Positions 1 through 64,000 of a stretch of DNA of 64,000 nucleotides are shown in pieces. The stretch is from an uncultured Christensenellaceae bacterium. GTDB lineage: Bacteria; Bacillota; Clostridia; Christensenellales; UBA3700. Position 1 is the first letter of the stretch. Every line of letters starts with the position of its first letter. The translations under genes were made by a program, and so were the position numbers. The notes beneath the pieces were generated by a model, which was not told the origin of the DNA, did not search any database, and was given only the letters and a program-made list of their open reading frames with translations. Location of the stretch: the NCBI GenBank assembly GCA_944380355.1, contig CALWHJ010000001.1, positions 150,739 to 214,738 of the forward strand. The letters run 5' to 3'.

Positions 1-1888
1 ATACGGTAAGGATACCGTTTTCTATTCTGTAAAGCTTGCCTTCGTAAGGAAGTACGTCAGCCATGGATACGGTGGTATCGAAGTAATACATACCCTTGAG
101 GTCGTATGCCTTAGCTTTTACATCGGGAAGCTGAGTTTCAAGAGCAGTAAGCTCGAATACATTGCCATCGTACACGTCGGTAACTACGGTAGGCTCGCCT
201 GCACTGTAGAGTACGATTTCGCCGTCAACGATATCTACGGTCTTGCCGATGTTGGCAATGCTGCCGATAGAGATAGCGAAAGTGAGGTCTACGTCATAGT
301 AGAAGCCGCCTTCGAAATAAATTGCACCGGATACTGCTACGTCTTCGATATTTTCAGCACCTACGAGGTTATCGGTAGAAGCAAATCCGTACAAACCGTT
401 GAAGTTGCCGAGTTCTGCCATAATGCCGAGTTTAGCAACGCCTGCGAGAATATCGAGCGACAAGGTATTTTTGATACCGAGTTTAACTTTTGCACTGCCT
501 TCTACGTCGATGTTGACGTTCTTGAGACCGGAGCCTTCGATTTCTTCAGCATAGGTGGATACACCGTCAACCTTATCGTATGTAGCACCTACCATATAGT
601 TGAATTCGGAGTTAGCTTTGATACCGAGTCTGCCTGCGAAGCTGAATTTGAAAGTGAGGTCACACTGATAGGTTACGGAAACTGCGCCGCCGCCTACGGG
701 AATGCTCCACGTAAACATAGGAACGTCAACGCCGCCTTCAGCGTTAGCTTCGTCCTGCATCTTAACGGTCTTTTCGATAAGTTCCGTCAAGTTGGTAACG
801 CTGGAATAGCTGTAACCAGTCTTGATATCGACGGTGGTGTCGATAACGTTGTATACGTTAGCGATAACGCCGCAATCTACCGCATTGCCTTCCATATCTG
901 CATTGATAATAGCGTCAGCGGTGATAAGAGCGTTTACGGTAACGATAAGATCGGTAGTCGCAGAATCAACTTTAACTACGCCGGGGATAGTCATCGTAAT
1001 AGCTACTTTAACAGAGCCGTCTTCAAGTCTTTCGGGTTTGATGTCAAAAGTAGGAGCCGAACCGAATACGGATACGGAAGCCATAGCGAGAGTGCTGTTT
1101 TGGAGTTCCTCCTCGATTGCCTCCTCGTCAAATTCTACCTTGCTGTCCTTGTCAAGCTCTTCGGTAGCGGATACGGAAAATTCTTCATAAACTTCGTTGA
1201 TTTGAGGTTTTACGTAATTGATGAACGTAACTGCATTCATATCGGTCTTGCTTGCGCTTTCGATTTTGTAAGCCTCTACAAGTCCGTTTTCCTCATCCTC
1301 GACCATAATTATGTCGCCTGCGTTTACGTCGACGCCGCTGGTCTGGATTTTAAGGTTTCCGTAGATTTCCTGTTCCTTACCCTCTCTGAGGACGAGCTCT
1401 TCGCTTACTTTCTCAACCTGCTTGGAGTCGAAAGTAATAAGACCGTCCACGAATTTGATATTGCTCAAAGTATCCTGGGTAATCGTAAATACAATGCTCT
1501 TAACCTTGCTATCGTAACCGCTGAAAGACAAAGATTTGTCAATGGTAATTTTGTAGATAGCACCCATCGTGTAATAACCGTTGGGGGGGTAAACCGTAAA
1601 TACGTTTTTACCGTCAGCATTGTTAGCCTTGGAAACAGTAACGTCTACCTTTTGATTGCTGACTACTGCAATTACCGAAACCTTATCGCTTATATCGGTA
1701 ACACCCTCGTCTGCAACTACGGTAAACATAATGCTCTTTTCTGCATTATTCAAAGTGGCAGTTGCACCTTGTTGGTCGCCGTCAACGGAAGTAGAGTTGT
1801 TTTTATTAACACAACCCGCTGCCATTGCCATAACCATAGCGACGATAAGAATAACGCCTACAAAGATAAGCATTTTATTCTTTCTCAT
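1..1888 (-). CDS. Large secreted lipoprotein, C-terminus off the window
   Basis: Open frame from an ATG at 1888 to the left edge without a stop, so only the first 629 codons are visible. A GGAGGA ribosome site lies 7 bases upstream. Residues 1-26 form a lipoprotein signal: MRKNK, a hydrophobic stretch, then the lipobox AMAAGC with the acylated Cys at position 26. The mature part starts with a Asn/Ser/Thr-rich linker and is otherwise beta-rich, low in Cys and acidic, with many Val/Thr/Asp. A Glu-rich patch (about residues 245-265) separates an N-terminal region from a region rich in short beta-strand-like segments. I recognise no family. It is probably an extracytoplasmic surface or binding protein; the function is unknown. 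Confidence 0.8.
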   Translation of the reverse strand, partial: MRKNKMLIFVGVILIVAMVMAMAAGCVNKNNSTSVDGDQQGATATLNNAEKSIMFTVVADEGVTDISDKVSVIAVVSNQKVDVTVSKANNADGKNVFTVYPPNGYYTMGAIYKITIDKSLSFSGYDSKVKSIVFTITQDTLSNIKFVDGLITFDSKQVEKVSEELVLREGKEQEIYGNLKIQTSGVDVNAGDIIMVEDEENGLVEAYKIESASKTDMNAVTFINYVKPQINEVYEEFSVSATEELDKDSKVEFDEEAIEEELQNSTLAMASVSVFGSAPTFDIKPERLEDGSVKVAITMTIPGVVKVDSATTDLIVTVNALITADAIINADMEGNAVDCGVIANVYNVIDTTVDIKTGYSYSSVTNLTELIEKTVKMQDEANAEGGVDVPMFTWSIPVGGGAVSVTYQCDLTFKFSFAGRLGIKANSEFNYMVGATYDKVDGVSTYAEEIEGSGLKNVNIDVEGSAKVKLGIKNTLSLDILAGVAKLGIMAELGNFNGLYGFASTDNLVGAENIEDVAVSGAIYFEGGFYYDVDLTFAISIGSIANIGKTVDIVDGEIVLYSAGEPTVVTDVYDGNVFELTALETQLPDVKAKAYDLKGMYYFDTTVSMADVLPYEGKLYRIENGILTV

Positions 1889-1938
1889 AAAAAATTCCTC
1901 CCTCTTAAAATTTTAGTATAGATACTAAATGCAAGTAT

Positions 1939-1967
1939 ATTCTATAATATTCTAAGAGGGAATTCAA
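1939..1967 (-). promoter_or_regulatory. Sigma-A-type promoter of the large lipoprotein
   Basis: On the minus strand TTGAAT (1962-1967) and TAGAAT (1939-1944) are separated by exactly 17 bases, about 50 bases before the lipoprotein start. The glmM stop lies just upstream, so this would give the lipoprotein its own transcript. Confidence 0.5.
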
Positions 1968-2031
1968 TAGATTGTTGAAAAGTTTTATTAAAAGTTTATT
2001 AAAAGTTTGTGAAAATTTTTTAATATAGCAG

Positions 2032-3324
2032 TTATAATTCTAGATTTTCCACTAACTTCGTTAAGTTATTAACAATTTCTTTAATTCTATTTTCATCTTT
2101 GTATTCGAGAGTAATTCTCAGCTTATTTTCCGTACCCGAAGGTCTGACGAGAATTCTGCCCTCGTCTTTAAACTCTTTTTTGATATCTTCGATTGCTTTT
2201 TTAAGCAATTCGCTTTTTGCTGTTTTCTCCTTGTCGGACACCTTGATTGACTTGGTAATCTGAGGTACCGTAACGGCTTTAGCCAACGCGGATAAAGGTT
2301 TTTTGCTTTCGCTGACTATTTTTGAAAGCACTACCGCCGTCTGCACGCCGTCACCCGTAGTACTCTCTGAAAGTATGAGAGTATGTCCCGAGCCTTCTCC
2401 GCCGAGGATACCTCCTTTTGCCAAAAGGTTGCGCAAAACGTACTTATCTCCGACGTCCGCTCTGTCAAAACATATGCCGCAAGCCTCGATTTCGCGCTGA
2501 ATTCCGATATTCGTCATAAGCGTGCCCGTAATAATATTGCCCTGCAAAAGTCCTTTTGATTTAAGATACTTTCCTATAACGAGTAAATTTTTGTCACCGT
2601 CGACTATTTCGCCTTTTTCGTCAAGCGCGATAAGTCTGTCCCCGTCCCCGTCAAAACTGAATGTCAAATCAAACTCTTTTGCTTTTTCCGAAAGAAGCTC
2701 TGCGTATACCGCACCGCAGTTATCGTTGATAACCGAGCCGTCAAGGCTGTCGTTGACAACGGTTACCTCTGCGCCGAGTTTACGGAAAACCTCGGGAGCG
2801 ATACGCGACGTCGCACCGTTGGAGCAGTCAAGCAAAATCTTAACGCCATTGAGATTTACGCCCTTATCTGCAAGAAAAGCTACATACTCTGCTTCGCCGT
2901 TGTCATAAGCTATTTTAGCACCGCCCTTGCGCATATAAAGCTTTCCGGATATTCTGTCCTCTATTTCTCTCTCCAGGCTTTCGCTAATCTTGTGTCCTTC
3001 TCCGTCAAACACCTTTATTCCGTTGTATTCGGGAGGATTGTGGGAAGCACTTATCACCACGCCGTAGTCGCAAGCGTGTTTTATTGCAAGATAAGCGACT
3101 CCCGCCGTAGGCATCAGCCCCAAATCGAGAATTTCGCCGCCCGCGTCGATAAAACCTTTGCAAAACGCATTCGACAAGTCTTCTCCCGAGATACGCGTAT
3201 CCCTTCCTATTACGGCACGGCACTTCTCCTTAAGCCCGCCCAAAGCGTTGCCTGCTTTATAGGCAAAGTCCTCGCTGAGTTCCTCGTATGCTATACCTCT
3301 TATTCCGTCTGTTCCGAATTTCAT
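2032..3324 (-). CDS. glmM: Phosphoglucosamine mutase
   Basis: Cytoplasmic enzyme that converts glucosamine-6-phosphate to glucosamine-1-phosphate for UDP-GlcNAc and peptidoglycan synthesis. It is full length (430 aa) with all alpha-D-phosphohexomutase signatures: FGTDGIRG at the N-terminus, the phosphoserine loop SASHNPP with Ser94, the metal loop DGDGDR, and the C-terminal phosphate loop RPSGTE. The ATG at 3324 is preferred because GAGG lies 5 bases upstream; an in-frame GTG at 3330 has no better site. It starts 7 bases past the stop of the acetyltransferase gene, so the two are co-transcribed and act in the same pathway (GlcN-6-P to GlcN-1-P to GlcNAc-1-P). Confidence 0.97.
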   Translation of the reverse strand: MKFGTDGIRGIAYEELSEDFAYKAGNALGGLKEKCRAVIGRDTRISGEDLSNAFCKGFIDAGGEILDLGLMPTAGVAYLAIKHACDYGVVISASHNPPEYNGIKVFDGEGHKISESLEREIEDRISGKLYMRKGGAKIAYDNGEAEYVAFLADKGVNLNGVKILLDCSNGATSRIAPEVFRKLGAEVTVVNDSLDGSVINDNCGAVYAELLSEKAKEFDLTFSFDGDGDRLIALDEKGEIVDGDKNLLVIGKYLKSKGLLQGNIITGTLMTNIGIQREIEACGICFDRADVGDKYVLRNLLAKGGILGGEGSGHTLILSESTTGDGVQTAVVLSKIVSESKKPLSALAKAVTVPQITKSIKVSDKEKTAKSELLKKAIEDIKKEFKDEGRILVRPSGTENKLRITLEYKDENRIKEIVNNLTKLVENLEL

Positions 3325-3331
3325 AGGCACC

Positions 3332-3937
3332 TCAATATCTGGAAGTTTTGGATTCTTTTACAATCTGACGCGACCTGCCTATAACAAAGCTGTCGTTGGG
3401 AGTTTCGTCCGTAACGGTAGTACCTGCAGCAATATAGCTGTTTGCTCTCAAAGTAACGGGGGCGATAATATTGCAGTTGGAGCCTATAAAGCAGTTATCC
3501 TCAACGGTGCTTCTGTGTTTTTTCTTACCGTCGTAGTTGACGAATATAACGCCGCAACCTACGTTACACCTTTCTCCTATGGTCACATCCCCCACATAAG
3601 CTAGATGCGAAGCCTTGGTATAATCTCCTATCACGGAATTTTTTATTTCGACAAAATCGCCTATACGGCAATGATTGCCTATGCACGCACCTTTACGCAG
3701 ATATGCGAAAGGACCTACGGTAGTATTATCGCCAACGCGCGCTTCCTCCATTACCGCCGCAGTAACTTTGGCGTTTTCACCTATGATACTGTCCGTAATA
3801 ATGCAATTGGGCATAATGACGGTACCTTTACCGATGACCGTATTGCCGATGATATTGTTGTTGGGATAAATGACGACGTCCTCGGCTATCTGTGCCTCAG
3901 GCGATATATAAGTCGTATTCTTATCAATTAAAATCAT
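3332..3937 (-). CDS. GlmU-type N-acetyltransferase domain protein (no pyrophosphorylase domain)
   Basis: Left-handed beta-helix protein of 201 aa made of hexapeptide repeats. It matches only the C-terminal half of bifunctional GlmU. The acetyltransferase signatures are present in order: the substrate-binding EIKNS lysine, the catalytic histidine in ASHLAYVGD, NYDGKKK, and the GSNCNIIAPV and AAGTTVTD acetyl-CoA-site segments. It should acetylate glucosamine-1-phosphate, the product of the adjacent glmM. The N-terminal Rossmann uridylyltransferase domain of GlmU (normally about 230 residues) is absent. UDP-GlcNAc formation would therefore need a separate uridylyltransferase elsewhere. Start chosen at the ATG 4 bases after AGGAGG; an upstream in-frame ATG at 3955 lacks such a site. 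Confidence 0.85.
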   Translation of the reverse strand: MILIDKNTTYISPEAQIAEDVVIYPNNNIIGNTVIGKGTVIMPNCIITDSIIGENAKVTAAVMEEARVGDNTTVGPFAYLRKGACIGNHCRIGDFVEIKNSVIGDYTKASHLAYVGDVTIGERCNVGCGVIFVNYDGKKKHRSTVEDNCFIGSNCNIIAPVTLRANSYIAAGTTVTDETPNDSFVIGRSRQIVKESKTSRY

Positions 3938-4289
3938 AATGCCTCCTTTTATCAATAAGCACTACATTTTATGCCTAAAATAAAAATGCAGTTACATAGT
4001 CTTAAATTATTTGTGTGTAATATAAAAATTTATATACTCAGCATTAATTTTATTATAATTAAATATTTTTATTTAAGTCAATATATTAAAAAATAATGTG
4101 ATATATTATAATTAATATCTTTTATTTTATCCTACTTAATATTGAAAATTTCCAAGCTTTTTTACAACAAATCACACAAACTTCTTATTATTGACTAAGC
4201 TTCGGAGTGCATTTTACAACATATTATCCAATAAAAAAAAGAGAGAAAATCGCATTTTCTCTCTCTGTATTTTGATATATCCACAAATG
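3938..4289. other. AT-rich intergenic stretch
   Basis: About 350 bases, strongly AT-rich, between the acetyltransferase start and the flavin reductase stop. It contains the rho-independent terminator at 4233-4263. I see no gene, tRNA or convincing riboswitch; the promoter of the glm pair must lie here but no hexamer pair stands out. Confidence 0.6.
4233..4263 (-). terminator. Rho-independent terminator after the flavin reductase gene
   Basis: A perfect 10-bp stem (4241-4250 with 4254-4263, arms GAGAGAAAAT/ATTTTCTCTC) with a 3-base loop is followed on the minus strand by eight T residues. It closes the aroF-flavin reductase transcript. Confidence 0.85.
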
Positions 4290-4793
4290 TCAATCGTTGT
4301 TTACCAAAATTTTTTCTATTTCAGCTACATACACTTCGTGATAATCGTTGTCGGGATAGCACTGAGGTATAATCTTTTTATCGTAAAAACCGTCGGGCGT
4401 CAATACCGAAGAATAGAGTTTTTTACATACAAAAGTCAATTCGGCTTCCTTGAATACGGGCGCATCGTAACCCGCCGTAAGCGTAAGATTTGCTTTTGCG
4501 ATTTTATCTTCGTCCCTGCCTGACACCTTTCCCATATATGTGAGCATATCTCTGTATTCTTCCACAAAGAAACTGAGAGACAGCGTACTGCTTTTATCTA
4601 TGAAAGTTTTCGTATAACGCTGAGGACGGATAAAAAGAAACACGACGTTTTTGTTCCATATTACACCCATACCGCCCCAAGATGCGGTCATTGCGTTCGT
4701 TTTGCCGTCCGCGCTTGCCGCTACGAGCGTCCACTGCTTGCCTATTGCATCAAATACGTTTTGCTTTAACTGTTCTGCTTTTATCTCTTTCAT
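4290..4793 (-). CDS. Flavin reductase-like (FMN-binding split-barrel) protein
   Basis: 167 aa, matching the flavoredoxin/flavin reductase-like domain family, which binds FMN and usually transfers electrons from NAD(P)H or a partner. Visible family features are the N-terminal WTLVAA strand, the NAMTASWGG loop around the flavin, and FIRPQRYTKTFI with the Arg expected near the phosphate. No membrane segment is present. It starts 8 bases after the DAHP synthase stop with the ribosome site GAGG lying in that gap, so it is the second gene of a two-gene transcript. The link to aromatic biosynthesis may be only transcriptional. The exact substrate is not predictable. Confidence 0.82.
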   Translation of the reverse strand: MKEIKAEQLKQNVFDAIGKQWTLVAASADGKTNAMTASWGGMGVIWNKNVVFLFIRPQRYTKTFIDKSSTLSLSFFVEEYRDMLTYMGKVSGRDEDKIAKANLTLTAGYDAPVFKEAELTFVCKKLYSSVLTPDGFYDKKIIPQCYPDNDYHEVYVAEIEKILVNND

Positions 4794-4800
4794 ATATACC

Positions 4801-5829
4801 TCACAGTCTGTCTGCGATATCGTATATCAAACGCTCACTCTTTTCCCATCCCAGACAAGGGTCCGTAACTGACTTTCCGTATACGCTCTCGGTAATTTTT
4901 TGATTGCCGTCCTCTATGTAAGACTCTATGAGCATACCTTTGACTATGTTTTTGATAGTATCGCTGTAATGCATATTGTTGATTATCTCGTGAGCAATTC
5001 TTATCTGCTCGATATAGTTTTTGTTGGAATTAGAGTGGTTTGTATCAATAATGATAGCAGGGTTTTGCAAGCCCTGAGCCTCATACATACTGCTGAACTT
5101 GACTATATCCTCGTAGTGATAATTCTGATGATTGTTTCCGTATACGTCTACGCTTCCTCTCAAAATTGCGTGCGCATAAGGATTGCCCTTTGTCTTGACC
5201 TGATAGTCGAGATACTTGAATTCGTTGGGAATCTGCGCCGCATAAATGGAATTGAGCGTAACGCTCATACTTCCGTTCATAGGGTTTTTGATACCTACGG
5301 GAACTTCTACACCGCTGGCTACGAGTCTGTGCTGCTGATTTTCAGACGACCTTGCACCTACTGCAACGTAAGTCAGCAAATCGTCGAGATAATGGTAATT
5401 GTCGGGATAAAGCATCTCGTCAGCCGCACTGAGTCCGCTTTCGCTTATCGCGCGGATATGCATATCTCTTATTGCCATAATACCTGCCAAGATATCCGTA
5501 ACGTTTTTGTGGGGGTCGGGGTTGTGGAGTATACCCTTGTATCCCTCGCCTCTCGTACGGGGCTTGTTGGTATAAATTCTGGGTACGATAAATATTTTAT
5601 CCTTTACTTTGTCTGCTACCTTCGCAAGACGCGCAACGTAATCGCATACCGCTTCTTCGTTATCTGCAGAGCAAGGTCCCATGATAAGCATCATTCTATT
5701 GTCCTTGCCGGCAATGATGTTGCGAGCGGTTTCGTCGCGTTCGTTTTTGAGTTTTTGATATTCGGGCTTGAGATGACTGATTTGTTTTACTTCCTCTTCG
5801 CTCAATATTTTCTTTACTTTATCAAACAT
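4801..5829 (-). CDS. aroF: 3-deoxy-7-phosphoheptulonate (DAHP) synthase, class I
   Basis: Catalyses phosphoenolpyruvate plus erythrose-4-phosphate to DAHP, the first step of the shikimate pathway. 342 aa is the usual length of AroF/AroG-type enzymes. Visible signatures are MGPCSADN (metal Cys), PRTRGEGYKG, the KNPMNGS loop, LRGS and the DTNHSNS metal segment near residue 265. The start is an ATG preceded by AAAGGTGA. The paralogue (F, G or H) and thus the feedback amino acid cannot be decided from sequence; the symbol is used in the generic sense. Confidence 0.93.
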   Translation of the reverse strand: MFDKVKKILSEEEVKQISHLKPEYQKLKNERDETARNIIAGKDNRMMLIMGPCSADNEEAVCDYVARLAKVADKVKDKIFIVPRIYTNKPRTRGEGYKGILHNPDPHKNVTDILAGIMAIRDMHIRAISESGLSAADEMLYPDNYHYLDDLLTYVAVGARSSENQQHRLVASGVEVPVGIKNPMNGSMSVTLNSIYAAQIPNEFKYLDYQVKTKGNPYAHAILRGSVDVYGNNHQNYHYEDIVKFSSMYEAQGLQNPAIIIDTNHSNSNKNYIEQIRIAHEIINNMHYSDTIKNIVKGMLIESYIEDGNQKITESVYGKSVTDPCLGWEKSERLIYDIADRL

Positions 5830-5857
5830 TTTTTCACCTTTTATTCAAACTACATAC

Positions 5858-5886
5858 ATTATAGTACAAAAGCACGGTTTAGCCAA
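5858..5886 (-). promoter_or_regulatory. Promoter of the DAHP synthase gene
   Basis: Minus-strand TTGGCT (5881-5886) and a perfect TATAAT (5858-5863) with 17-base spacing. The leader is about 25 bases, too short for an attenuator or T-box. Confidence 0.65.
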
Positions 5887-5915
5887 CTGTTTTGATATCT
5901 CTGAGCAAAGATTTA

Positions 5916-6113
5916 TTATTCTGCGTCGTAGCCCTCGTCTTTTATCTTTGCTTTTATATCGTCCAAAGAAACTCTGCTTTCGTCAAACTGTATTTCTACG
6001 CTTTCGCTCAGACGGTCGGCTTTGACAAAGCTTACTCCGTCCATTGCGCCTAAACTCTTATTGACTCTGTTTTCGCAGTGCTCGCACATCATACCTTTTA
6101 CTTTAATTTTCAT
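5916..6113 (-). CDS. Possible internal in-frame start producing a CopZ-like copper chaperone
   Basis: Inside copA, an in-frame ATG at 6113 is preceded by AAAGGAG with 6 bases spacing, as strong as any ribosome site in the window. Translation from it gives a 65-aa protein that is exactly one HMA domain, beginning MKIKVKGMMCEHC, the size and layout of CopZ chaperones. CopZ is usually a separate gene downstream of copA in Bacillota. Here the upstream stop seems lost or never present, so the domain may be made both fused and free. E. coli copA also makes a free chaperone from the same gene, by frameshifting. The site is seen; its use is inferred. Confidence 0.5.
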   Translation of the reverse strand: MKIKVKGMMCEHCENRVNKSLGAMDGVSFVKADRLSESVEIQFDESRVSLDDIKAKIKDEGYDAE

Positions 6114-8417: not shown

Positions 8418-8451
8418 ATCCTTTTCTCCGAAATTCCTATATGAAATTTTA

Positions 8452-8475
8452 ATCCCTACTATTTTACTAGGGTAT
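8452..8475. promoter_or_regulatory. Candidate operator of the copper ATPase gene
   Basis: Between the -10 and the copA start lies an inverted pair CCCTA...TAGGG separated by 9 bases. It is placed where a copper-responsive repressor could act. It does not match the CopY box (TACANNTGTA). A CsoR-type site is possible but not demonstrable by eye. Confidence 0.3.
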
Positions 8476-8486
8476 AGATTATTTAT

Positions 8487-8515
8487 ATAGTACAATATAA
8501 ATTTTGCTTTGTCAA
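8487..8515 (-). promoter_or_regulatory. Promoter of copA
   Basis: Perfect -35 TTGACA (8510-8515), 17-base spacer and -10 TACTAT (8487-8492) on the minus strand, about 70 bases upstream of the copA start. Confidence 0.65.
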
Positions 8516-8628
8516 TATTATTGCGTGTCATTTTATAAATAAACACTACAAGATAATAAATAACGGTATCGCCGACACGAAGAAGTTTAAAACCTCATTT
8601 AAACAAAATTCAAACCCGACCTTGCGTA

Positions 8629-8661
8629 AAAACAAAAATACGCCCCGCTATAGCGGAGCGT
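8629..8661 (-). terminator. Terminator at the end of the sugar locus
   Basis: An 11-bp, almost perfect GC-rich stem (about 8640-8661) followed on the minus strand by a T-rich tract. It lies about 35 bases after the stop of the 309-aa lipoprotein gene and ends the long minus-strand carbohydrate transcript(s). Confidence 0.8.
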
Positions 8662-9624: not shown

Positions 9625-9625
9625 A

Positions 9626-55304: not shown

Positions 55305-55772
55305 TTACTGGTTGGCTTTCTCCATATCTATTGCGATAGCGAGAAGCATTACGTCGAGAGCGTGCTCAGGATTGGAAATATTGAGCGTATAAACGTCGAA
55401 AAGATTGATTACGTGCTTGCTGAGAGACGCAATTATATTATTATTCTGGTCAACTACGGTGTAATTCCAGCCGAAGAAATCGCCGTCTACTTTCCAGTTG
55501 TTGAAGTCAATCTTGAACTTATCTCCGAATAACTTAATACCTTTTTTGATGCGGCCTACTTCTTTTCCGCCCTTGAAAATTCTGAATGTAGGGAAAATAT
55601 CTATCAATTTTCCTTTGACCGCGCCCAACTCGTTGCCGGCAGCGTCTCTGACCACAAACTTTTTAGGTATTGTAAATTTACCCTGGACATCATACACTTC
55701 GTTGTTGTCCTGGTCATACACTTTGTATCTTCCCAAAATAGTAAGTGCTTTTTGTTTGAATGTCAAAATCAT
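55305..55772 (-). CDS. LURP-one-related (tubby C-terminal-like) protein
   Basis: 155 aa, all-beta, repeating strands such as YDVQGKFTI, FRIFKGGKEVG and WNYTVVDQNNN ending in the hydrophobic helix ALDVMLLAIAIDM. This matches the LURP-one/YxjI family with the tubby-like beta-barrel around a central helix. Function is unknown in bacteria; membrane phosphoinositide-like or scramblase roles have been proposed for relatives. Start ATG follows a good AGGAGG. Confidence 0.8.
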   Translation of the reverse strand: MILTFKQKALTILGRYKVYDQDNNEVYDVQGKFTIPKKFVVRDAAGNELGAVKGKLIDIFPTFRIFKGGKEVGRIKKGIKLFGDKFKIDFNNWKVDGDFFGWNYTVVDQNNNIIASLSKHVINLFDVYTLNISNPEHALDVMLLAIAIDMEKANQ

Positions 55773-55836
55773 ATTTTTCCTCCTGTCAATTTAAAGCCTA
55801 GCGGGCTCTAAACCCCTTTAATATATTTTTTATTCC

Positions 55837-56736
55837 TCAGAAACGTCTTGTATGCTCCCGAGAAAAACTTTTCCTCTTGCGTAATTTCTCTGCAGTCTCA
55901 TCAATGTCATTTTGAGAGACATATCCCTTAAGGTTCAATTTTTTCATAGTGAATCCGTCAAGTTTTACGTCGACGCTGCCTAATTCTACGTTACGGTTTG
56001 CTCCGTGATAGTCCGTGCCTCCCGTCGCTATAAGCCCGTATCTTTTTGCAAGCTCTTTGAGCGTAGCGCACGTAGAAGCGTCGTGCACGGGATAGTATAC
56101 TTCGATGCCCTCTAGTCCGAAAGGTTTAAGCCCTTCGATAAGAGGTTTTATCTTACCCTGCTGCAAAAACCTGAGCGGATGAGCGATTACGGGCAACCCC
56201 TTTGCCTGTTTTATAAGCTCGACGCCCTGCATAGGCGTAATTCTCTTTGACGGATAATATGCCTTACCGTTGGCTCCCAGATACCTGTCGAATGCCTCGG
56301 GTATGCTTGCGGAAAAGCCCTGCGCAACCATAAGTTTTGCTATATGCAATCTGCCAACGCTCGCACTGTCCGAAGGCAAACTATCCCTGTCGAGTTTTAT
56401 TCCCAGCTGATACAGTCTGTCCAGTATAAGCCCCGCTCTTTCCTTACGCTTTTTCTCAAAATAGTCGAGTTTCTCGAGAAGCTGAGCATTCTCAGGGTCG
56501 AAGCAGTATCCCAAAACGTGTATTTCGCAAGAGGCAAAAGTAGACAGTTCTACGCCGTTGATATACGTAATCCCGCATTTTTCCGCATAGTCGCCCAAGT
56601 CCTTTATCGCCCCTATACAGTCGTGGTCGGTAATGGACATTATTCCGATACCGAGTTGCTTTGCCTTATCGACAATATCTCTCGGCGAATCGGTGCCGTC
56701 GCTCAATACGCTGTGTATGTGCAAATCTGTCTTCAA
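55837..56736 (-). CDS. PHP-domain phosphoesterase (RNase AM/TrpH-like)
   Basis: 299 aa. PHP motifs in order: HIHSVLSDGTD, SITDHDCIGA, NGVELST, AHPLR and GGTDYHG, together making the trinuclear metal site. It belongs to the YciV/TrpH-like group, members of which act as 5'-3' exoribonucleases or 3',5'-nucleotide phosphatases. The start is a TTG overlapping the rmuC stop (TTGA), with GGAGG 4-5 bases upstream. Distinct from the CehA-like PHP protein in the sugar locus. Confidence 0.88.
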   Translation of the reverse strand: MKTDLHIHSVLSDGTDSPRDIVDKAKQLGIGIMSITDHDCIGAIKDLGDYAEKCGITYINGVELSTFASCEIHVLGYCFDPENAQLLEKLDYFEKKRKERAGLILDRLYQLGIKLDRDSLPSDSASVGRLHIAKLMVAQGFSASIPEAFDRYLGANGKAYYPSKRITPMQGVELIKQAKGLPVIAHPLRFLQQGKIKPLIEGLKPFGLEGIEVYYPVHDASTCATLKELAKRYGLIATGGTDYHGANRNVELGSVDVKLDGFTMKKLNLKGYVSQNDIDETAEKLRKRKSFSREHTRRF

Positions 56737-58136
56737 CTTTCCTCCTCCGACGCTACCTGTTCGATAAGATTGTCTTCCTGTACGGGAGCGGGCAACTCGT
56801 CGCCCACTTTTCTTAGTCTGCCTATAATTTTTTCGTTACGCTTTTCCACGTCCTCGACGGTATCGACTACGAGTTTGGCATTGCGTTTGATTTTGGTAAT
56901 AAGGTCGGTATACCTTTCAAAATCTTTTCTGAAGCGCTGAAGTTCCTTGACTATTTCTCCGCTCTTTTTCTGTATCTTAAGCGTGGTAAAGCCCGTCTGT
57001 AAACTATTGAGAAGCGCAGTTATGGTAGTAGGTCCGCATACGGTTACTTTGCAATCGTTTTGCAGGCTTGCCGTAAACGCGCTGTCTTTGACTATCTCGG
57101 CATACAATCCCTCGGTAGGCAAATACATAATAGCAAAATTCGTCGTTACAGGCGGCTTGACATACTTTGAAGATATGCTTTTGGCTTGTTTTTTGACTTC
57201 GTCAAACAATGCCTTTCTCGCTTTTTCCGTACTCTCCGCATTGCCTTCCTCGCTAATCTCGACAAGCTGTGTATATCTGTCGAGAGGGAACTTTGAGTCG
57301 ATAGGCAAATATACCTGCTCTTCACCGCTGTTTCCGGGCATTACTATTACGAAGTCAACTGCCTCCTGAGAAGTACGGCTGAGCTGCACCTGTTTGCGGT
57401 ATTGCTCGGGAGAAAGTATCTGGTCAAGCAAACTCTCGAGCGCGACTTCTCCCCAACCGCCTCTCGTCTTGACGTTGGAAAAGACCTTGTTGAGATTGGT
57501 TACTTTTGTGGACAAGTCCTTCATTTCGCCAAATCCCTGTTGTACTTTATCCAGTCTGTCGTTGACTATCTCGAAAGCGTTTTTGATACGCGTATCGAGC
57601 GTTGACGTGAGTTTTTCGTCTACGGTGTTACGCATCAGTTCAAGCTGCTTATCGTTGTTTTCCCTTACGTTAGTCAGCTGTTTTTCGTTGTCGGCACGCA
57701 TATCTTTGAGTGACTTGTCGATTTCCTCTTTCATACTTCTCAAAGACTTGTCCGTATCTTCTCTCATCATACCCGTAGCGTACTTCATCTCGCCTCGGAT
57801 TGCCTCGAGCTGTTCTTTGGTAGTCCTCAGGTTGTCGTCAAGCGTGGACTTGAACTGCTTCATATAGTTGTCGAGCATAGGTATAAACGTACTGTTTGAC
57901 GCATTGAAAGCCGACGTGAACGACGATACTATATTGGCTCCCTCTCTCGAGGTGTGTTCGTTGACGAGGTTCTTGACCTCGTTGAGATTGTTGTTGAGAT
58001 TGTCTATCTCTTCGAGTAATTCTCCTTTTTCCGCGCCCTTTTCTTTTCGGACTATTTTAGCAAGCACTACCGCGCCGATAATTACGGATACAAATCCGCA
58101 TACGCACGCGATAATAGCAATAATCAATTCAATCAT
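56733..58136 (-). CDS. rmuC: DNA recombination protein RmuC
   Basis: 467 aa. N-terminal membrane helix, a long coiled coil of about 170 residues (heptad-like KSLRSMKEEIDKSLKDMRADNE region) and the C-terminal RmuC nuclease-like domain (GGWGEVALESLLDQIL, LPIDSKFPLD, YLPTEGLYAE). RmuC limits inversions at short inverted repeats. It overlaps cca by 8 bases and the PHP gene by 4. Confidence 0.94.
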   Translation of the reverse strand: MIELIIAIIACVCGFVSVIIGAVVLAKIVRKEKGAEKGELLEEIDNLNNNLNEVKNLVNEHTSREGANIVSSFTSAFNASNSTFIPMLDNYMKQFKSTLDDNLRTTKEQLEAIRGEMKYATGMMREDTDKSLRSMKEEIDKSLKDMRADNEKQLTNVRENNDKQLELMRNTVDEKLTSTLDTRIKNAFEIVNDRLDKVQQGFGEMKDLSTKVTNLNKVFSNVKTRGGWGEVALESLLDQILSPEQYRKQVQLSRTSQEAVDFVIVMPGNSGEEQVYLPIDSKFPLDRYTQLVEISEEGNAESTEKARKALFDEVKKQAKSISSKYVKPPVTTNFAIMYLPTEGLYAEIVKDSAFTASLQNDCKVTVCGPTTITALLNSLQTGFTTLKIQKKSGEIVKELQRFRKDFERYTDLITKIKRNAKLVVDTVEDVEKRNEKIIGRLRKVGDELPAPVQEDNLIEQVASEEES

Positions 58137-59484
58137 TCTTCTTTTCCTTCTCCATTTTAAGGCGTTGTTTCTTCGCCTCTTTCAACATACTCCCTCTTTC
58201 GTTTGCAATAAGTCCGTCGACAGACAACTTCACCAGTCTGTCAAGTTCCTCTCCTATCTCTCGACCGCCGTATCCGAGCGTTTGCAAATCCCTGCCGTTG
58301 ACGGATAACATCGAAACGTTAAATGCCGTATTCTGCGCTTGCATATTCTTATATATACCGCGCATCTTCTCAGCCGTACGCGAATATTCGTAATATCCCG
58401 TACCTATGCTGTCCGCGTCGAACAAAGCAATCATATCGTCGATTATATCGTAATATTTTGCTATGAACCGTCTGTATTTGACGTCGCGTGCGTTTCCGTT
58501 GACGTCAAACATATGCCCGCCCACAAGCCTCGATATCCTGTCTATCTCTTTGAGCGGATATTTGTATCTGGTCATAATTGCGCGCGTCATTGCTTCACCT
58601 ACCGAAGCGTGCATATAAGTATTGCCGTCCTCGCGCTTGCACTTAGCTTTAGCTATATCGTGGAAGAGGCCTGCAAGCCTTATACCGACGGGACAGTTTT
58701 CGACAACCTTGAATATGTGTTCGAGTACGTCGTATTTGTGAAACTCGCTCTTTTGCGGTTCCTTGTCGTTGTCGGCAAGTTCGGGCAATATAATTTTCAA
58801 TACTCCTGCCTCATTCATAAGCTTTAAGGCATTGTAGCAGTATGCGCCCGCAAGAAGCTTATCCAACTCGTCCCTGATACGCTCTACGGATATATCCGTA
58901 AGATTATTTTTTAGTCTTTTCGCGCTCTCGTAAGTATCCTCGTCTATGCCGTATCCCAGCACCGAGGCAAACCTGAACAAGCGCATTATTCTCAGACCGT
59001 CCTCAGACAGCACTTTTTCCGAAGCTACCGTAGTAGAAAGCACTTTGTTTTTCACGTCTTGCTGACCGTTCAAAGGGTCGACGAGCCGACCTTTGAGAAT
59101 ATCGAAGTACATTGCGTTGCACTTGAAGTCGCGTCTGCAAGCGTCGGTATAAATATCATTGGTAAATTCCACTTTCAAAGGCGTATGCTCTCCGCTTCCT
59201 TTGGGATAGCTGTCCGTCCTGAAAGTAGTATATTCGTAATGCCTTCCGTCGCCTTTTACGACTACGGTACCCAGTCTCGGGGAAGCCGAATGTACGCAAA
59301 AGCCGCTGCCGTCCAGAATTTCGGCAAGTTCGTCGGGAAGCACTGCGCCCGCCAAGTCTATATCGTAAAACTCCGCACCTCTGATGCTGTCTCTTACGCA
59401 ACCGCCTACTGCGTAAAGAGGTTTGTCAGAGGGAAAAAGCTTTGCCAGTTTTGTAAGCTCTTCGCTTTGCAATCGTGAAAACAA
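58129..59484 (-). CDS. cca: CCA tRNA nucleotidyltransferase with HD domain
   Basis: 451 aa. Nucleotidyltransferase head with GGCVRDS and the metal Asp pair in YDIDLAG. RRDFKCNAMYFD and the neck helix (RIMRLFRFASVLG) follow. A C-terminal HD domain with LFHDIAKAKC is present. Adds or repairs CCA at tRNA 3' ends; class II without a poly(A)-specific signature that I can separate. Start is a TTG with GAGG 6 bases upstream. Part of tilS-hpt-cca-rmuC-PHP. Confidence 0.92.
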   Translation of the reverse strand: MFSRLQSEELTKLAKLFPSDKPLYAVGGCVRDSIRGAEFYDIDLAGAVLPDELAEILDGSGFCVHSASPRLGTVVVKGDGRHYEYTTFRTDSYPKGSGEHTPLKVEFTNDIYTDACRRDFKCNAMYFDILKGRLVDPLNGQQDVKNKVLSTTVASEKVLSEDGLRIMRLFRFASVLGYGIDEDTYESAKRLKNNLTDISVERIRDELDKLLAGAYCYNALKLMNEAGVLKIILPELADNDKEPQKSEFHKYDVLEHIFKVVENCPVGIRLAGLFHDIAKAKCKREDGNTYMHASVGEAMTRAIMTRYKYPLKEIDRISRLVGGHMFDVNGNARDVKYRRFIAKYYDIIDDMIALFDADSIGTGYYEYSRTAEKMRGIYKNMQAQNTAFNVSMLSVNGRDLQTLGYGGREIGEELDRLVKLSVDGLIANERGSMLKEAKKQRLKMEKEKKND

Positions 59485-59494
59485 CCGCCACCTC

Positions 59495-60019
59495 TCAGCT
59501 CAATTCGAGAACGCCTATATACGGCAGGTTACGGTACTTTTCGTCATAGTCGAGACCGTATCCCACAACAAATTCGTCGGGTATGGAATATCCTATATAG
59601 TCGGCTTCGAAGTCTGTTTGCCTTCTGGAAGGCTTGTCCAGAAAGGCGCATACTCTTATGCTCTTGGCTCCCCTGTGCTCCAAAAGCGCGGTAAGCGACT
59701 TCATAGTATTTCCACTGTCGATAATATCCTCTATTATGAGCACGTCTTTGTCGCATATATCGTGCGACATATCCTTTTTGATTTTTACGTTTCCGCTCGA
59801 ACTCATGCCCGACCCGTAACTCGACACCGCCATAGTATCGAAACGTATAGGGAGTTTGATTTTTCTCACCAAATCTCCGTAAAAGATTATCGAGCCTTTG
59901 AGTATAGCTACTACGATAGGCTCCTTGCCCTCGTAATCTTTTTCTATTTGCGCGCCCAATTCGGCTACGCGCTTTGCTATCTTTTCTTCGTCTATAAGTA
60001 CTTTAGTTATCCTTTCCAT
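59495..60019 (-). CDS. hpt: Hypoxanthine phosphoribosyltransferase
   Basis: 174 aa. PRPP motif LIIEDIIDSGNTM near residue 95 and the N-terminal VAILKGSIIFYGDL. Salvages hypoxanthine and guanine to IMP and GMP. Overlaps the end of tilS by 17 bases with GAGG 6 bases upstream. The tilS-hpt pair is conserved in Bacillota, though the usual ftsH does not follow. Confidence 0.96.
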   Translation of the reverse strand: MERITKVLIDEEKIAKRVAELGAQIEKDYEGKEPIVVAILKGSIIFYGDLVRKIKLPIRFDTMAVSSYGSGMSSSGNVKIKKDMSHDICDKDVLIIEDIIDSGNTMKSLTALLEHRGAKSIRVCAFLDKPSRRQTDFEADYIGYSIPDEFVVGYGLDYDEKYRNLPYIGVLELS

Positions 60020-61319
60020 ATCCTTCCTCTAAGAGCGTTTTTCTTACCGTAATATATGCGATACGCACCGTATTGTCGTCAATCTTTACAGCGTCTGCTA
60101 TCTCGTATTCGGGCAAGAGTAAAACTTCTTTGTCTTTTGCTATGACAATCGCATTGTCCCTGAGTCTGCGGGCAAGCTTAATATCCGTAAAATAATCTCC
60201 CAGACTCTTTTTTGCGCCTTTGTATCTTCTGAAAGAATCTCCCTCTCGTCTGTTGCGTATATCTGCGTCTATCAGTTTGTCGAGGTCGCATCTCAGTGCG
60301 CCTGAGATTTCGTCGGGCGATACTACAAGCGTTCTGCCGTCCAAACCGTATTCTCCGTAACCCGTTATGCTTCCGCGGTAGTTTGTTTTTTCGTCGAGGG
60401 CAAGCGTAATGCCGTCAGTCTCTTTGTATGCCGTAAGAGAGAAAGGAAGATTTACGCTCGCTCCGCTCTGTCTACCCGCTAGCGCAATAACGCTGTCTAT
60501 ATGCTTTGCCGTCAAATCCACTCTGGTGGTTATTTTGTCGACGGCATTGATAACCGTCTGCGAAGCTATGACTTTGTCGCGTTTGAATACTCTGTCGGGA
60601 ATAAAAACAGCTCGGTTTTTCACTTCAAAATCTCTGCTTTGCGAATCTATATACCCGAATATTTCTCTGGCCCTCTCCCCCAGTCTCAGAATATTGTTTT
60701 CGAAATTGGGATAGGCTTGGGATATCAGAGGTATTATCTCGTGCCTTATTTTGTTGCGGGTATAGTCAACGCAAAAATTAGTACTGTCTTCCACGTAAGG
60801 TATTTCGTTTTGCTTTACGTATCTGTCGATATCTTTTCTTGTTACGTGCAGATAAGGTCTTAACAGAACGCCGTCGTCAAAATCCATACCGCGCAATCCT
60901 CTAATGCCGCTTCCTCTGAACACGTGCATCAAAATGCTTTCTGTCTGGTCATCGCAATGGTGCGCCGTAACGACTCTCTGCGCTCTGCCTAAAGCAACTA
61001 AGTCTTGAAAAATCTGTCTGCGCCGTATGCGCGCTCCTTGCTCTACCGTATAGCCGTTGGCAGTACAAAATGCGGGAATGTCTTCTTCGTACACCTCGCA
61101 CTCGACGTCGTGCTTTTTGCAAAAATCCGACACGAAATCTCTGTCTCTTTCGCCCTCTTTTCCTCTTAAGTTGTGATGTACGGTAATGACAAAAAAAGTT
61201 CCTTTAGCGAAATTGTTCAAATAATAATGCAACAGAGACATAGAGTCCTTGCCTCCGCTGACAGCCAAAGCAACCCTGTCGAATTGTCTCAATCCGTCTT
61301 TTTCGATACCGTCCAGCAT
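60003..61319 (-). CDS. tilS: tRNA(Ile)-lysidine synthetase
   Basis: 438 aa. N-terminal PP-loop ATPase with AVSGGKDSMSLLHYY, HHNLRG and HHCDDQTES. C-terminal TilS domains (residues about 350-438). Changes C34 of tRNA-Ile(CAU) to lysidine so it reads AUA. The start at 61319 is chosen because the -10 element ends only 7 bases before this ATG; the alternative ATG at 61346 would lie within the promoter. Confidence 0.94.
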   Translation of the reverse strand: MLDGIEKDGLRQFDRVALAVSGGKDSMSLLHYYLNNFAKGTFFVITVHHNLRGKEGERDRDFVSDFCKKHDVECEVYEEDIPAFCTANGYTVEQGARIRRRQIFQDLVALGRAQRVVTAHHCDDQTESILMHVFRGSGIRGLRGMDFDDGVLLRPYLHVTRKDIDRYVKQNEIPYVEDSTNFCVDYTRNKIRHEIIPLISQAYPNFENNILRLGERAREIFGYIDSQSRDFEVKNRAVFIPDRVFKRDKVIASQTVINAVDKITTRVDLTAKHIDSVIALAGRQSGASVNLPFSLTAYKETDGITLALDEKTNYRGSITGYGEYGLDGRTLVVSPDEISGALRCDLDKLIDADIRNRREGDSFRRYKGAKKSLGDYFTDIKLARRLRDNAIVIAKDKEVLLLPEYEIADAVKIDDNTVRIAYITVRKTLLEEGYGKDN

Positions 61320-61325
61320 ATTTGT

Positions 61326-61354
61326 ATTATAATATAAAATATACAATAAATCAA
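61326..61354 (-). promoter_or_regulatory. Promoter of tilS giving a leaderless mRNA
   Basis: Minus-strand TTGATT (61349-61354), 17 bases, perfect TATAAT (61326-61331). The tilS ATG begins 7 bases after the -10, exactly where transcription should start, and there is no ribosome site. Predicted leaderless transcript. Confidence 0.6.
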
Positions 61355-61473
61355 TATCTTTGCAAAATTAGACTGCTAAAAATAATTGCCAAGGTACTCT
61401 TTGTGACGAAAAATACAAAAAACTGTCCGAATCTTAACAAAAATAAAATCTTGAATAAATTGCAATATATTAT

Positions 61474-61502
61474 TTGAAAAAATAAAAGTAATGTGTTATA
61501 CT
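61474..61502 (+). promoter_or_regulatory. Promoter of tRNA-Ser
   Basis: TTGAAA (61474-61479), 17 bases, TATACT (61497-61502), about 35 bases upstream of the tRNA. Confidence 0.7.
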
Positions 61503-61541
61503 CATTAATGTTGACACAAAAACAGCAGTCAAACACAATAC

Positions 61542-61632
61542 GGAGACGTATCGAAGTGGTCGTAACGGGACTGACTCGAAATCAGTTGTACCGTTCTCGG
61601 TACCGTGGGTTCGAATCCCACCGTCTCCGCCA
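61542..61632 (+). tRNA. tRNA-Ser (CGA anticodon)
   Basis: 91 bases including an encoded CCA. Acceptor arms GGAGACG/CGTCTCC, anticodon stem ACTGA/TCAGT with loop CTCGAAA (anticodon 61577-61579), long variable arm GTACCG/CGGTAC typical of class II Ser tRNA, T stem GTGGG/CCCAC with loop TTCGAAT. Reads UCG codons. Confidence 0.96.
61612..61632 (+). repeat. 21-bp tRNA 3'-end sequence, copy within the tRNA
   Basis: Last 21 bases of the tRNA (T loop to CCA), present again unchanged at 61803-61823 in the same orientation. Tyrosine integrases commonly use tRNA 3' ends as attachment sites, so this pair is a candidate att repeat. Confidence 0.6.
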
Positions 61633-61667
61633 CATCAAGGCAGTTTGCCTATATACAAACAAAAAGA

Positions 61668-61693
61668 CGAGAGAAAACCTCTCGCCTTTTTTT
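61668..61693 (+). terminator. tRNA-Ser terminator
   Basis: Stem CGAGAG/CTCTCG with a 5-base loop, then CC and seven T residues. Confidence 0.85.
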
Positions 61694-61802
61694 GTTTTAC
61701 TTCTTGGCAACTGCCTTGCCAGCTTCACGGCTGGACAGTCCGAAATAGTGACGCTCGCTTTCTCCGCTCCGCTAGCTCGCTATTCCGTCGCTTCGCTCCT
61801 TA

Positions 61803-61823
61803 CGAATCCCACCGTCTCCGCCA
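61803..61823 (+). repeat. 21-bp tRNA 3'-end duplicate outside the tRNA
   Basis: Exact copy of the tRNA-Ser terminal 21 bases including CCA, 191 bp downstream and not attached to any tRNA body. Reads as a leftover attachment site or the junction of an integrated element. Confidence 0.65.
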
Positions 61824-61862
61824 AACAGAGTCGCGTTCGAACCCGCGGCTCTGTTATTTTTG
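61824..61862 (+). terminator. Terminator directly after the att-like copy
   Basis: Long stem AACAGAG+TCGCG/CGCGG+CTCTGTT (61824-61855) and ATTTTTGT. Confidence 0.75.
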
Positions 61863-61872
61863 TATTAAAGGA

Positions 61873-61971
61873 GTTGCCGGTATCATAATCGATACCGAAG
61901 TTTATGTTCCCCAATGGTCTGACTTCTACTTGACACAGAAAAGAGATGAACACGGTTTTTACACAAAATAG
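61873..61971 (+). pseudogene. Short gene remnant without a start codon
   Basis: A 32-codon frame ending at TAG 61969-61971, with protein-like composition (IDTEVYVPQWSDFYL segment), AAAGGAG just upstream and a terminator just downstream, but no ATG, GTG or TTG in frame. Probably the tail of a lost gene; the identity is unknown. Confidence 0.25.
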
Positions 61972-61993
61972 ACGGCTTATGTCGTCTATTTTG
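61965..61993 (+). terminator. Terminator after the gene remnant
   Basis: Perfect 10-bp stem AAAATAGACG/CGTCTATTTT (61965-61974, 61983-61992), with T residues in and after the second arm. Confidence 0.7.
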
Positions 61994-62095
61994 TTTGCAT
62001 TAAAACTTGTTTTTTGCTACAACTCAATTATCTGATGGTTTTTCTTGTAACATTATTATGATCGAAGGCAAATATAGTAAAACTTCATCTAAATC

Positions 62096-62124
62096 TTGAT
62101 TTTAACGCGATCATATGATATACT
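62096..62124 (+). promoter_or_regulatory. Promoter of the GH39-like gene
   Basis: TTGATT (62096-62101), 17 bases, TATACT (62119-62124), 17 bases before the start codon, which is preceded by GGAGG. Confidence 0.55.
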
Positions 62125-62140
62125 TTTTACGGAGGCGTCA

Positions 62141-63919
62141 ATGAACGATACCGTTAAAAAAGTCATAGCCGCATTATCTGTCGCTGTAATCGTATTGACC
62201 ATATTACTGGGAGGTGCCATAGCGGTTTCCGTAATCGTTGTTTCGCTCGGGCGCAGCGACGGTACTGCGTGGTTTTACGTAGACGGCACGCTTTATCGTG
62301 CCGTTAAAGTCGAAAACGGCACCGTGAGCTGTCCCGATGTACCTACGGTCGCGGGCACGGTATTTGACGGTTGGTACTCCGACGCTGACTACACCGGACA
62401 AAAAACGACCTTTCCCGCACTTATCGACGGCGACACGGCATTCTATGCGCGACGCATACCTTTCTCCGAAGCCGACAACGATTATATGTCCGCATCGATT
62501 GCGATCGACGGATCCGTTGTCGTTGCCGATAAAATGAAGCCTGTTCACGGTATCAATAACGGTCCTGTAAACGGTATCGGAATATTCGATGAGCCGTATA
62601 TCGACGCTTCGGAATATTTTGCGAATATGGGAGCTCCTTTCGTACGTTTGCATGACACGGAATATCCGTTCGGAAGAGACTGCTATGTCGACATACACTG
62701 CGTCTTCCCCGACTTTTCAGCCGATGAAAAGGACATAACCAACTACGACTTCGATAAGACGGATGAATACGTGCGATCGATACTTACCGCCGTACCGGAT
62801 GCCGAGATCATTTACCGCTTAGGAGAAAGCATAGACCATACGCGCTCAGGCGGTTATACCGTAGTCCCGGAAGACATTGCCAAGTGGGCAAATATCTGCA
62901 CGGAAGTCGTACGTCACTATTTTTACGAGTATGGCATTCGCTTTTACGAGATCTGGAACGAACCCGATCAAGAGGCAATGTGGAACGGCACTCCCGAACA
63001 GTATTACGAATTATATCGCGTAACTGCGCAGACCATCCGGGAAGAATTCGGGGAGCAAGTCAAAATCGGAGGACCGGCGCTTGCGACAAGTACTACCGAA
63101 ACCATCGGGGCTTTTCTTAACGCCGTCGATGGCTATCCTCTGGATTTTTTGTCCGTTCATGCCTATTGTAACGATCCTGAACAATACAACTCCGATCAGT
63201 ATTCCGTTTTTAAGGATATGCTCGCGGAACACGGCTATACAAATGCGTTGCTCATACTTGACGAATGGAATTTCGTATCGGGATGGGACGAAGGATCTCT
63301 CGCTGACAGCTACCGCCTTATTTCTTCGAACAAATCCGGGGCGTATATTGCCGCCTCGCTGATCGCTCTCCAAAATTCGGCTGTCGACGCCGCTTTGTAC
63401 TACGATTCGCAGATGACCGGTATGTGGTGCGGTCTTTACTACAAACCGTACTTCGATATCGGCAACGAAAGTCTTTCCGAATTGATCGAAGCGTATATGG
63501 CAGGTGGCGCGGAGGCATTGAATTCTTTTATGCGCGAGCTGCTCGAAGTATACAAAGACGAACAATTACAACCGCTATCAGGCACGTATGCGATGAGCGC
63601 ATATGATCGACTCTATTCGATGACTTCCCCTATGCAACTCAGCGTCACTACGTCCGAGCATGGATTGTGGGCGATCGCGGTCACCGATATATCAGATGGA
63701 ACAACCGGGATGCTTGTTTCCAACTGCGCCGACACGGGTAAAAATATCGTGACAAACATCAGCGGCGCGGATATTCCGAACGGAACTGTCGTATCGGGTA
63801 CTGTTTGGGAATGCTCTGCCGACGGAAAGCCGCTCGCTGCAACCGTTACGGATGGCACGGCGGTATTTGCCTTGGGACCGTATTCATTCGCCTATTTCGA
63901 AGTACAGGCGGAGCGCTGA
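62141..63919 (+). CDS. Membrane-anchored GH39-like glycoside hydrolase
   Basis: 592 aa. Residues about 7-36 form one N-terminal membrane helix. Residues about 45-90 resemble a single Listeria/Bacteroides repeat (FDGWYSDADYTG pattern). The main body is a TIM barrel with the GH39-like acid/base motif EIWNEPD (Glu274), FLSVHAY, and the putative nucleophile in ILDEWN (Glu375). The C-terminal ~120 residues are a beta domain. Such enzymes act on xylosides, iduronides or related sugars outside the cell. Codon use and GATC content differ from all upstream genes (CGN arginines, many GATC), so the gene looks transferred. Start ATG has GGAGG 5 bases upstream. Confidence 0.82.
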   Translation: MNDTVKKVIAALSVAVIVLTILLGGAIAVSVIVVSLGRSDGTAWFYVDGTLYRAVKVENGTVSCPDVPTVAGTVFDGWYSDADYTGQKTTFPALIDGDTAFYARRIPFSEADNDYMSASIAIDGSVVVADKMKPVHGINNGPVNGIGIFDEPYIDASEYFANMGAPFVRLHDTEYPFGRDCYVDIHCVFPDFSADEKDITNYDFDKTDEYVRSILTAVPDAEIIYRLGESIDHTRSGGYTVVPEDIAKWANICTEVVRHYFYEYGIRFYEIWNEPDQEAMWNGTPEQYYELYRVTAQTIREEFGEQVKIGGPALATSTTETIGAFLNAVDGYPLDFLSVHAYCNDPEQYNSDQYSVFKDMLAEHGYTNALLILDEWNFVSGWDEGSLADSYRLISSNKSGAYIAASLIALQNSAVDAALYYDSQMTGMWCGLYYKPYFDIGNESLSELIEAYMAGGAEALNSFMRELLEVYKDEQLQPLSGTYAMSAYDRLYSMTSPMQLSVTTSEHGLWAIAVTDISDGTTGMLVSNCADTGKNIVTNISGADIPNGTVVSGTVWECSADGKPLAATVTDGTAVFALGPYSFAYFEVQAER

Positions 63920-64000
63920 TTCATCCTTTTGCGATCATTTAAATGCTGCTTGAGAATTTCCCATATCTTCAGAAGTTTGATTTTAGAGAAGGCTTCTTTT

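Follow-up and report, generated by a model that had tools for sequence, protein, structure and literature searches.

Why is a bacterial chromosome almost free of the tetranucleotide GATC over 62 kb, and why does GATC then return in 16 copies within the next 2 kb? The question is raised by a stretch of 64,000 bases (the window) of a metagenome-assembled genome (MAG) from an uncultured Christensenellaceae bacterium of the order Christensenellales. The window covers bases 150,739-214,738 of a 291,897-base contig, and the genome consists of 1,597,742 bases in 17 contigs. The evidence presented below is best accounted for, with a probability of about 75%, by a purge of GATC under successive GATC-cutting restriction-modification systems, followed by the recent import of a GH39-like glycosidase gene from a relative in which GATC has not been purged.

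Exact counting finds 28 GATC in the window. Twelve lie in positions 1-62,000 (949, 10907, 11006, 11362, 12319, 13787, 16343, 18926, 19187, 19336, 19359 and 23656), the number that the original prediction, made by reading the sequence, had estimated. The expectation of ~240 that accompanied it assumes equal base frequencies and drops to 175.9 when derived, as for all tetramers here, from trinucleotide counts (a Markov expectation), yet the strong deficit stands, with an observed/expected ratio of 0.07. The GATC-rich end was likewise correctly seen, with 16 sites at 62,060-63,933, although 12.6 rather than about 8 are expected for 62,001-64,000 (ratio 1.27). GATC is the rarest of the 256 tetramers in positions 1-62,000. 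Those ranking second to fifth are palindromes as well: GGCC (15 observed, 125.7 expected), whose rarity had also been noticed by eye, CATG (21 and 94.4), CTAG (16 and 68.7) and CCGG (61 and 159.6). The lowest ratio among the 240 non-palindromic tetramers is 0.41.

The depletion extends far beyond the window. In 2-kb bins along bases 110,739-291,897 of the contig, GATC is near zero before as well as after the final 2 kb of the window; the first bin past the window end has none, and counts remain low through the remainder of the contig. The rich part thus forms an island of ~1.9 kb instead of marking a boundary. A region boundary at 62 kb is thereby ruled out, and of the sharp break that had been proposed there, what survives is the separate history of the last 2 kb, as one likely imported gene rather than as a new region. 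In a sample of 614,632 bases (38% of the genome), 123 GATC are found against 1628 expected (0.08), so that the suggested comparison of palindromes with a Markov model upholds the deficit in both window and genome. GGCC (0.14), CATG (0.22), CCGG (0.34) and CTAG (0.38) are also low in this sample, and the remaining eleven palindromes lie at 0.75-1.09 of expectation. Eight islands of at least four sites contain 60 of the 123 GATC, the richest being the 16-site island at the GH39-like gene; two are in a uronate-catabolism cluster within the window, two in a restriction-modification locus and three elsewhere (by eye, at an ABC-transporter pair, at a membrane decarboxylase-like open reading frame (ORF) and in the stretch preceding a large ATPase-like ORF). 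For two of the other islands, rRNA or other structured RNA was rejected as the cause, as the two 20-kb stretches searched gave no Rfam match.

Codon usage does not explain the loss, as had been argued from the palindromic nature of the site. When codons were shuffled 100 times at synonymous positions in 34 ORFs, hand-picked from 141 listed, 127.1 GATC were expected and the lowest shuffle had 105, whereas the ORFs contain 11. These 11 are the only GATC in the tested ORFs; they lie within 10,907-23,656, inside the uronate cluster, and account for all but one of the 12 early sites. The 12 ORFs of this cluster, one third of the coding DNA in the test, have 11 GATC against 52.4 expected and 16 CATG against 56.1, while the other 22 have no GATC against 75.6, 3 CATG against 105.1 and 8 GGCC against 60.2. 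Because the cluster retains both words where the other ORFs hold 0 and 3, it would appear to be an older import that has been half purged. CCGG depletion is mild under the codon null, at 0.76.

Comparison with relatives indicates how the sites were lost. Fourteen relatives of the same genus were tried and seven aligned, in 30 local alignments covering 38.5 kb. At the aligned positions this genome keeps none of the relatives' 48 GATC sites and one of their 65 CATG sites, and palindromes that are not avoided are retained at 13-40% (CGCG, 6 of 45, and TTAA, 16 of 93, are lowest; GTAC is kept at 44 of 111). The changes in GATC fall on positions 1 to 4 in 22, 21, 11 and 26 cases and produce GGTC (7), GATT (6), GATA (3), GACC (2), GAGC (2) and others, by transitions as well as transversions. 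Since all four positions are affected, the pattern points to selection directed at the site, rather than to a single type of mutation.

A candidate agent of such selection is encoded in the genome. The suggested search for GATC restriction-modification genes succeeded: profiles PF02086, PF00145 and PF01555 match at a single locus only, at C2 60-69 kb, where the GC content of bins is 0.30-0.38. The locus encodes an MspI-like nuclease (a 275-residue ORF; PF09208 5.9e-29; PDB 1sa3 8.2e-36, also 1yfi), followed by an N6/N4-type methyltransferase, a C5 methyltransferase and a GmrSD_N protein, and then by three DpnII-type genes side by side. These encode a Dam-family methyltransferase (TIGR00571 3e-92; PDB 2dpm (DpnM) 8.1e-59 over residues 56-355), an adjoining DpnII-family nuclease (PF04556 8.6e-107, profile positions 1-277 of 278) and another N6/N4-type methyltransferase (a 249-residue ORF; PF01555 2.9e-28, split in two stretches). 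The last of these may be the counterpart of DpnA. For GATC and for CCGG, both among the avoided sites, the genome therefore encodes a predicted cognate enzyme. Within the locus, GATC is below expectation in the MspI-like part.

Tetramer palindromes are lost to an extreme degree far more often in this order than outside it, and its lineages differ in the sites that they have lost. One stretch of at most 20 kb was taken from each relative, blindly except in G006, G007, G010 and G015, where it surrounds a neighbour gene; stretches with less than 9 kb left once N had been removed were excluded, leaving 30 of 38 fetched for the order, 17 of 20 for other orders of the class and 34 of 40 for the rest of the phylum, and one further genome of the order contributed none. 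A genome was scored as showing extreme loss if any palindrome except CTAG, with an expected count of 10 or more, stood below 0.2 of that expectation; 23 of 30 relatives in the order qualify, compared with 2 of the 17 from the class outside this order and 1 of the 34 from the remaining phylum (Fisher p 3.6e-5 and 2.8e-10, kinship ignored). These p-values overstate the difference, because related genomes are not independent and 13 of the 30 belong to the same genus. With GGCC left out, the counts are 14 of 30, 0 of 17 and 1 of 34. The median for GGCC is 0.09 in the family itself (21 genomes, largest value 0.56), and extreme loss is found in 6 of 11 genomes of other families in the order. Lost sets include GTAC (0.00 in G023), AGCT (0.03-0.09 in G001, G031 and G038), CATG (0.02 in G001), ACGT and GCGC (0.03-0.04 in G006) and CCGG (0.05 in G030), and 7 of the 30 genomes have no low palindrome. 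The literature searched contains no report of order-wide extreme palindrome purging for this group; a rumen study, in the part available, gives high viral gene counts for Christensenellales (PMC13356809).

The distribution of candidate nucleases among the relatives is uneven. The DpnII nuclease family occurs in 4 of 40 relatives searched. Among 37 genomes compared, GATC levels are 0.08, 0.31, 0.14 and 0.41 in four carriers, against a median of 0.40 in the 33 others. GATC is below 0.2 in 7 of 30 usable relatives, and one of these seven, G025, has the nuclease. The ICEA (NlaIII-type) nuclease occurs in 2 of 40 genomes, G001 and G036, in which CATG stands at 0.02 and 0.00 (the second from only 7.7 kb), and CATG is also 0.00, in short stretches, in two genomes without an ICEA match. 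In both ICEA carriers (L132 and L131) a Dam-family methyltransferase lies about 1 kb or less from the nuclease. Loss of break repair was considered as a cause of strong selection and rejected: matches to the AddA model were found in 40 of 40 genomes, 5 of them over the cut-off, and the match in the present genome is below the cut-off, within an open frame of 1189 residues.

The island itself is occupied by the GH39-like gene. Its product matches PF01229 (62.8 bits, cut-off 26) and PDB entries 5z3k (1.4e-19) and 1px8 (1.3e-17), and contains WNEP and LDEWN motifs, which may provide the catalytic glutamates. The likely start at 62,141 gives it the length of homologue P0001. Under the codon null the ORF has 14 GATC against 6.7 and no GGCC against 6.3. 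The unit of promoter and gene is present in other MAGs at 98.3% (L020), 96.8% (L022), 96.8% (L021) and 69.7% (L023) DNA identity, and the GC content of its flanks is 0.30-0.33 in L020, 0.48-0.49 in L022, 0.58 in L021 (one side) and 0.56-0.57 in L023. Copies 97-98% identical in three MAGs with unlike flanks make it likely that the unit is a recent import from another bacterium. Thirteen of the 16 GATC positions are common to all four copies and one site of the other three has been lost here, implying that purging of the gene has hardly begun. The gene is rich in GATC and has no GGCC, and the flanks of L023 are alike (93 GATC against 67, 4 GGCC against 49), from which we infer a donor of the same order that avoids GGCC but not GATC.

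The left edge of the unit at 62,092, four bases before the predicted -35 box by eye, is common to the window, L020, L021 and L022. On the right, L022 diverges a few bases past the stop codon, L020 matches to 63,948 and the L021 contig ends inside the gene. In L020 the 81-base piece whose first part closes the window comes only after another 0.92 kb, as would be expected had a segment been lost here. The ORF after the gene in L020 (8005-8832), which has a weak HTH_11 match below its cut-off, resembles pieces of two genes joined. In L022 (1015-8861) the gene is followed by a radical-SAM-like ORF (by eye) and preceded by ORFs that, also by eye, we assume to be large serine recombinases; this copy may lie within a mobile element. 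The P0001 cluster has 565 member sequences, the longest contig being 2146 bases. Six peptide patterns found no relative of the gene in viral contigs, and 33 plasmid records matched it, all at less than 60% identity, and no match extended over 80% of the query.

The site of insertion is recognizable in the sister species G010. Flanks on both sides are syntenic with G010 (96.2% DNA identity over 4632 bases in the tilS-like region), which has another gene between them: its right neighbour follows 3.3 kb after the tRNA-Ser, with an 802-residue ORF between (a repeat protein by eye; L037 13139-15547). In G015 the right neighbour stands behind the same 130-base repeat, with a different short stretch between. 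The site between tRNA-Ser and right neighbour is taken as a spot of varying content, as these gene orders suggest. An integrative element at the tRNA gene was rejected: copies of the tRNA end do not frame the unit, the copy near 61,801-61,823 preceding it, and visual inspection of the ORFs between 60 and 64 kb and in the 6 kb that follow, not all of which were covered by a family search, revealed no integrase. The 130-base repeat has matches in 16 of 17 genomes of the genus, with 16 in this genome, some of them clustered. In G015 the copy next to the same neighbour gene shows 100% identity, against only 76% for the gene itself. Coordinates are collected in Table 1.

Table 1. Features of the window, with positions counted from its first base
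Feature	Position	Strand	Basis
GATC-purged chromosome; GGCC, CATG, CTAG and CCGG also low	1..62000		Markov counts, codon-preserving null, both sides of the window alike
Uronate-catabolism cluster (UxaC, UxuA, KDPG aldolase family, PfkB, MFS_2, MocA-type oxidoreductases)	9626..25860	-	Family matches
tilS-like gene, left neighbour	60003..61346	-	PF01171; homologues named TilS; conserved in G010
tRNA-Ser (CGA)	61542..61632	+	ARAGORN
Dispersed repeat member whose tail duplicates the tRNA-Ser 3' end	61694..61823		Repeat search; tail read from sequence
GATC island, 16 sites	62060..63936		Exact counts
Unit common to L020, L021 and L022	62092..63921	+	blastn
Predicted promoter: TTGATT (62096-62101), 17 bases, TATACT (62119-62124)	62096..62124	+	By eye
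GH39-like glycosidase gene, 592 residues	62141..63919	+	Pfam and PDB matches, homologue P0001; mechanical ORF start 62,096
First part of 81-base piece; truncated beginning of a likely regulator gene	63946..64000	-	blastn; remaining 26 bases outside the window

Prolonged exposure to enzymes that cut GATC, as the original prediction proposed, is the best-supported cause of the purge, given the DpnII-type system and the complete loss of the 48 aligned sites, even though the copy now present probably did not bring about all of it. Restriction-modification systems that cut GATC would select against unprotected sites, the selecting force being presumably the cutting of under-methylated GATC in the chromosome. 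Earlier GATC systems may have come and gone before the present copy, and the purge would then be a record of them, which the concentration of purges in the order fits, as expected from frequent gain and loss of systems. The GH39-like gene with its predicted promoter would have arrived afterwards. Several observations weigh against this scheme. The three DpnII-type genes are not poor in GATC (8 against about 8.5, small numbers), and the resident copy is therefore likely to be young rather than old. G010 is equally purged (3 GATC against 51 in 20 kb; 96-97% identical where aligned) but neither PF02086 nor PF04556 finds a match in its genome, which is 96% complete, so that a gap is possible; the purge is accordingly likely to be older than the present copy. 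Presence of the DpnII nuclease is not a significant predictor of GATC level across 37 genomes (p = 0.085), no ICEA nuclease matches in this genome despite its strong loss of CATG, and GATC losses have barely started in the GH39-like gene, from which a rate of purging is not measurable. That the resident system alone made the whole purge is thus very unlikely: its nuclease and methyltransferases do lie side by side in the genome, but the GATC content of its own genes, the state of G010 and the rarity of the nuclease, among strongly purged relatives as well, all speak against it.

A different kind of selection could act through exchange among kin, where alleles free of sites would pass the restriction barriers of relatives and spread by recombination, while genes from outside would keep their sites. 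Ordinary genes purged to zero beside likely imports that retain sites, the purge of G010 without a match to a GATC system and the different sites lost by different lineages would all agree with this, as does the suggestion, in the available text of Rusinov et al. 2015 (PMC4687349), that avoidance of GATC eases exchange between strains; self-cutting accounts for the same counts, however, and we regard the exchange filter as unlikely to be the explanation. GATC could also disappear without selection, through a mutational process linked to methylation or repair, and 27 of 47 listed single changes in CATG are indeed C-to-T or its complement, a skew that is not shared by GATC, where the spread of changes over every position and over transitions and transversions makes such a process highly improbable. 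The chance that composition, codon use or a library artefact lies behind the depletion is negligible, because neither the Markov nor the synonymous-codon null produces it, the aligned sites carry other letters and a second species is alike. An assembly chimera in place of an insertion would be in keeping with the repetition of the gene across metagenomes (the P0001 cluster), with the contig end inside it in L021 and with the origin of all copies from MAGs. Both flanks, however, are purged of GATC and match the same place in G010; a false join would have had to lead back into this genome at the point where it had left, and there is little chance that this occurred.

Successive GATC-cutting systems and one recent import thus remain the preferred account. 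A broader picture may be sketched, tentatively and with considerable doubt, of an order under rotating restriction enzymes, in which lineages would erase their own palindromes as phages do, site-free DNA would serve as a passport for exchange with kin and the remaining sites would date imports. If so, the order would constitute a natural experiment on the effect of restriction enzymes on the chromosomes of their hosts, and on the reasons for a much stronger response in some lineages. GATC density in this genome marks likely imported genes almost as yes or no, and the island exposed a single-gene transfer that is hardly visible from GC content alone (0.48 in the patch, 0.44 otherwise).

Site avoidance as such is already known; its depth and its concentration in one order are unusual here. 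The part of Rusinov et al. 2015 that was available (PMC4687349) describes under-representation of Type II sites, even where the system is absent but present in relatives, and traces of lost systems, with an avoidance cut-off of 0.78. The present case resembles theirs in that palindromic sites of orthodox Type II systems are avoided, also without a current system, that neither codons nor amino acids drive the loss and that a cognate system is predicted in the genome. The value of 0.08 for GATC in 38% of the genome passes that cut-off, as a Markov ratio and not by their Kr formula. It differs from what that part of their work presents in this depth, in the complete absence of GATC from 22 ORFs, in the number of sites affected and in the clustering in one order. 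The GATC locus resembles the DpnII system of Streptococcus (DpnM, DpnII and a second methyltransferase) in having adjacent genes for a methyltransferase closest to DpnM, a DpnII-family nuclease and a further N6/N4-type methyltransferase. The first of these, at 355 residues, exceeds 2dpm (284 residues) through an extension at its N-terminus, and the activity and specificity of the system are predicted ones. Likeness to MspI (CCGG) lies in the family and structure matches of the nuclease and in the C5 methyltransferase nearby, although an N6/N4-type methyltransferase intervenes between the two and the specificity is a predicted one. The GH39-like protein shares with beta-xylosidases and their relatives the above-threshold family match and the structural matches, and differs from them in covering only part of the profile (108-232 of 472), in its N-terminal Flg_new segment and in having spread as a bare unit of promoter and gene.

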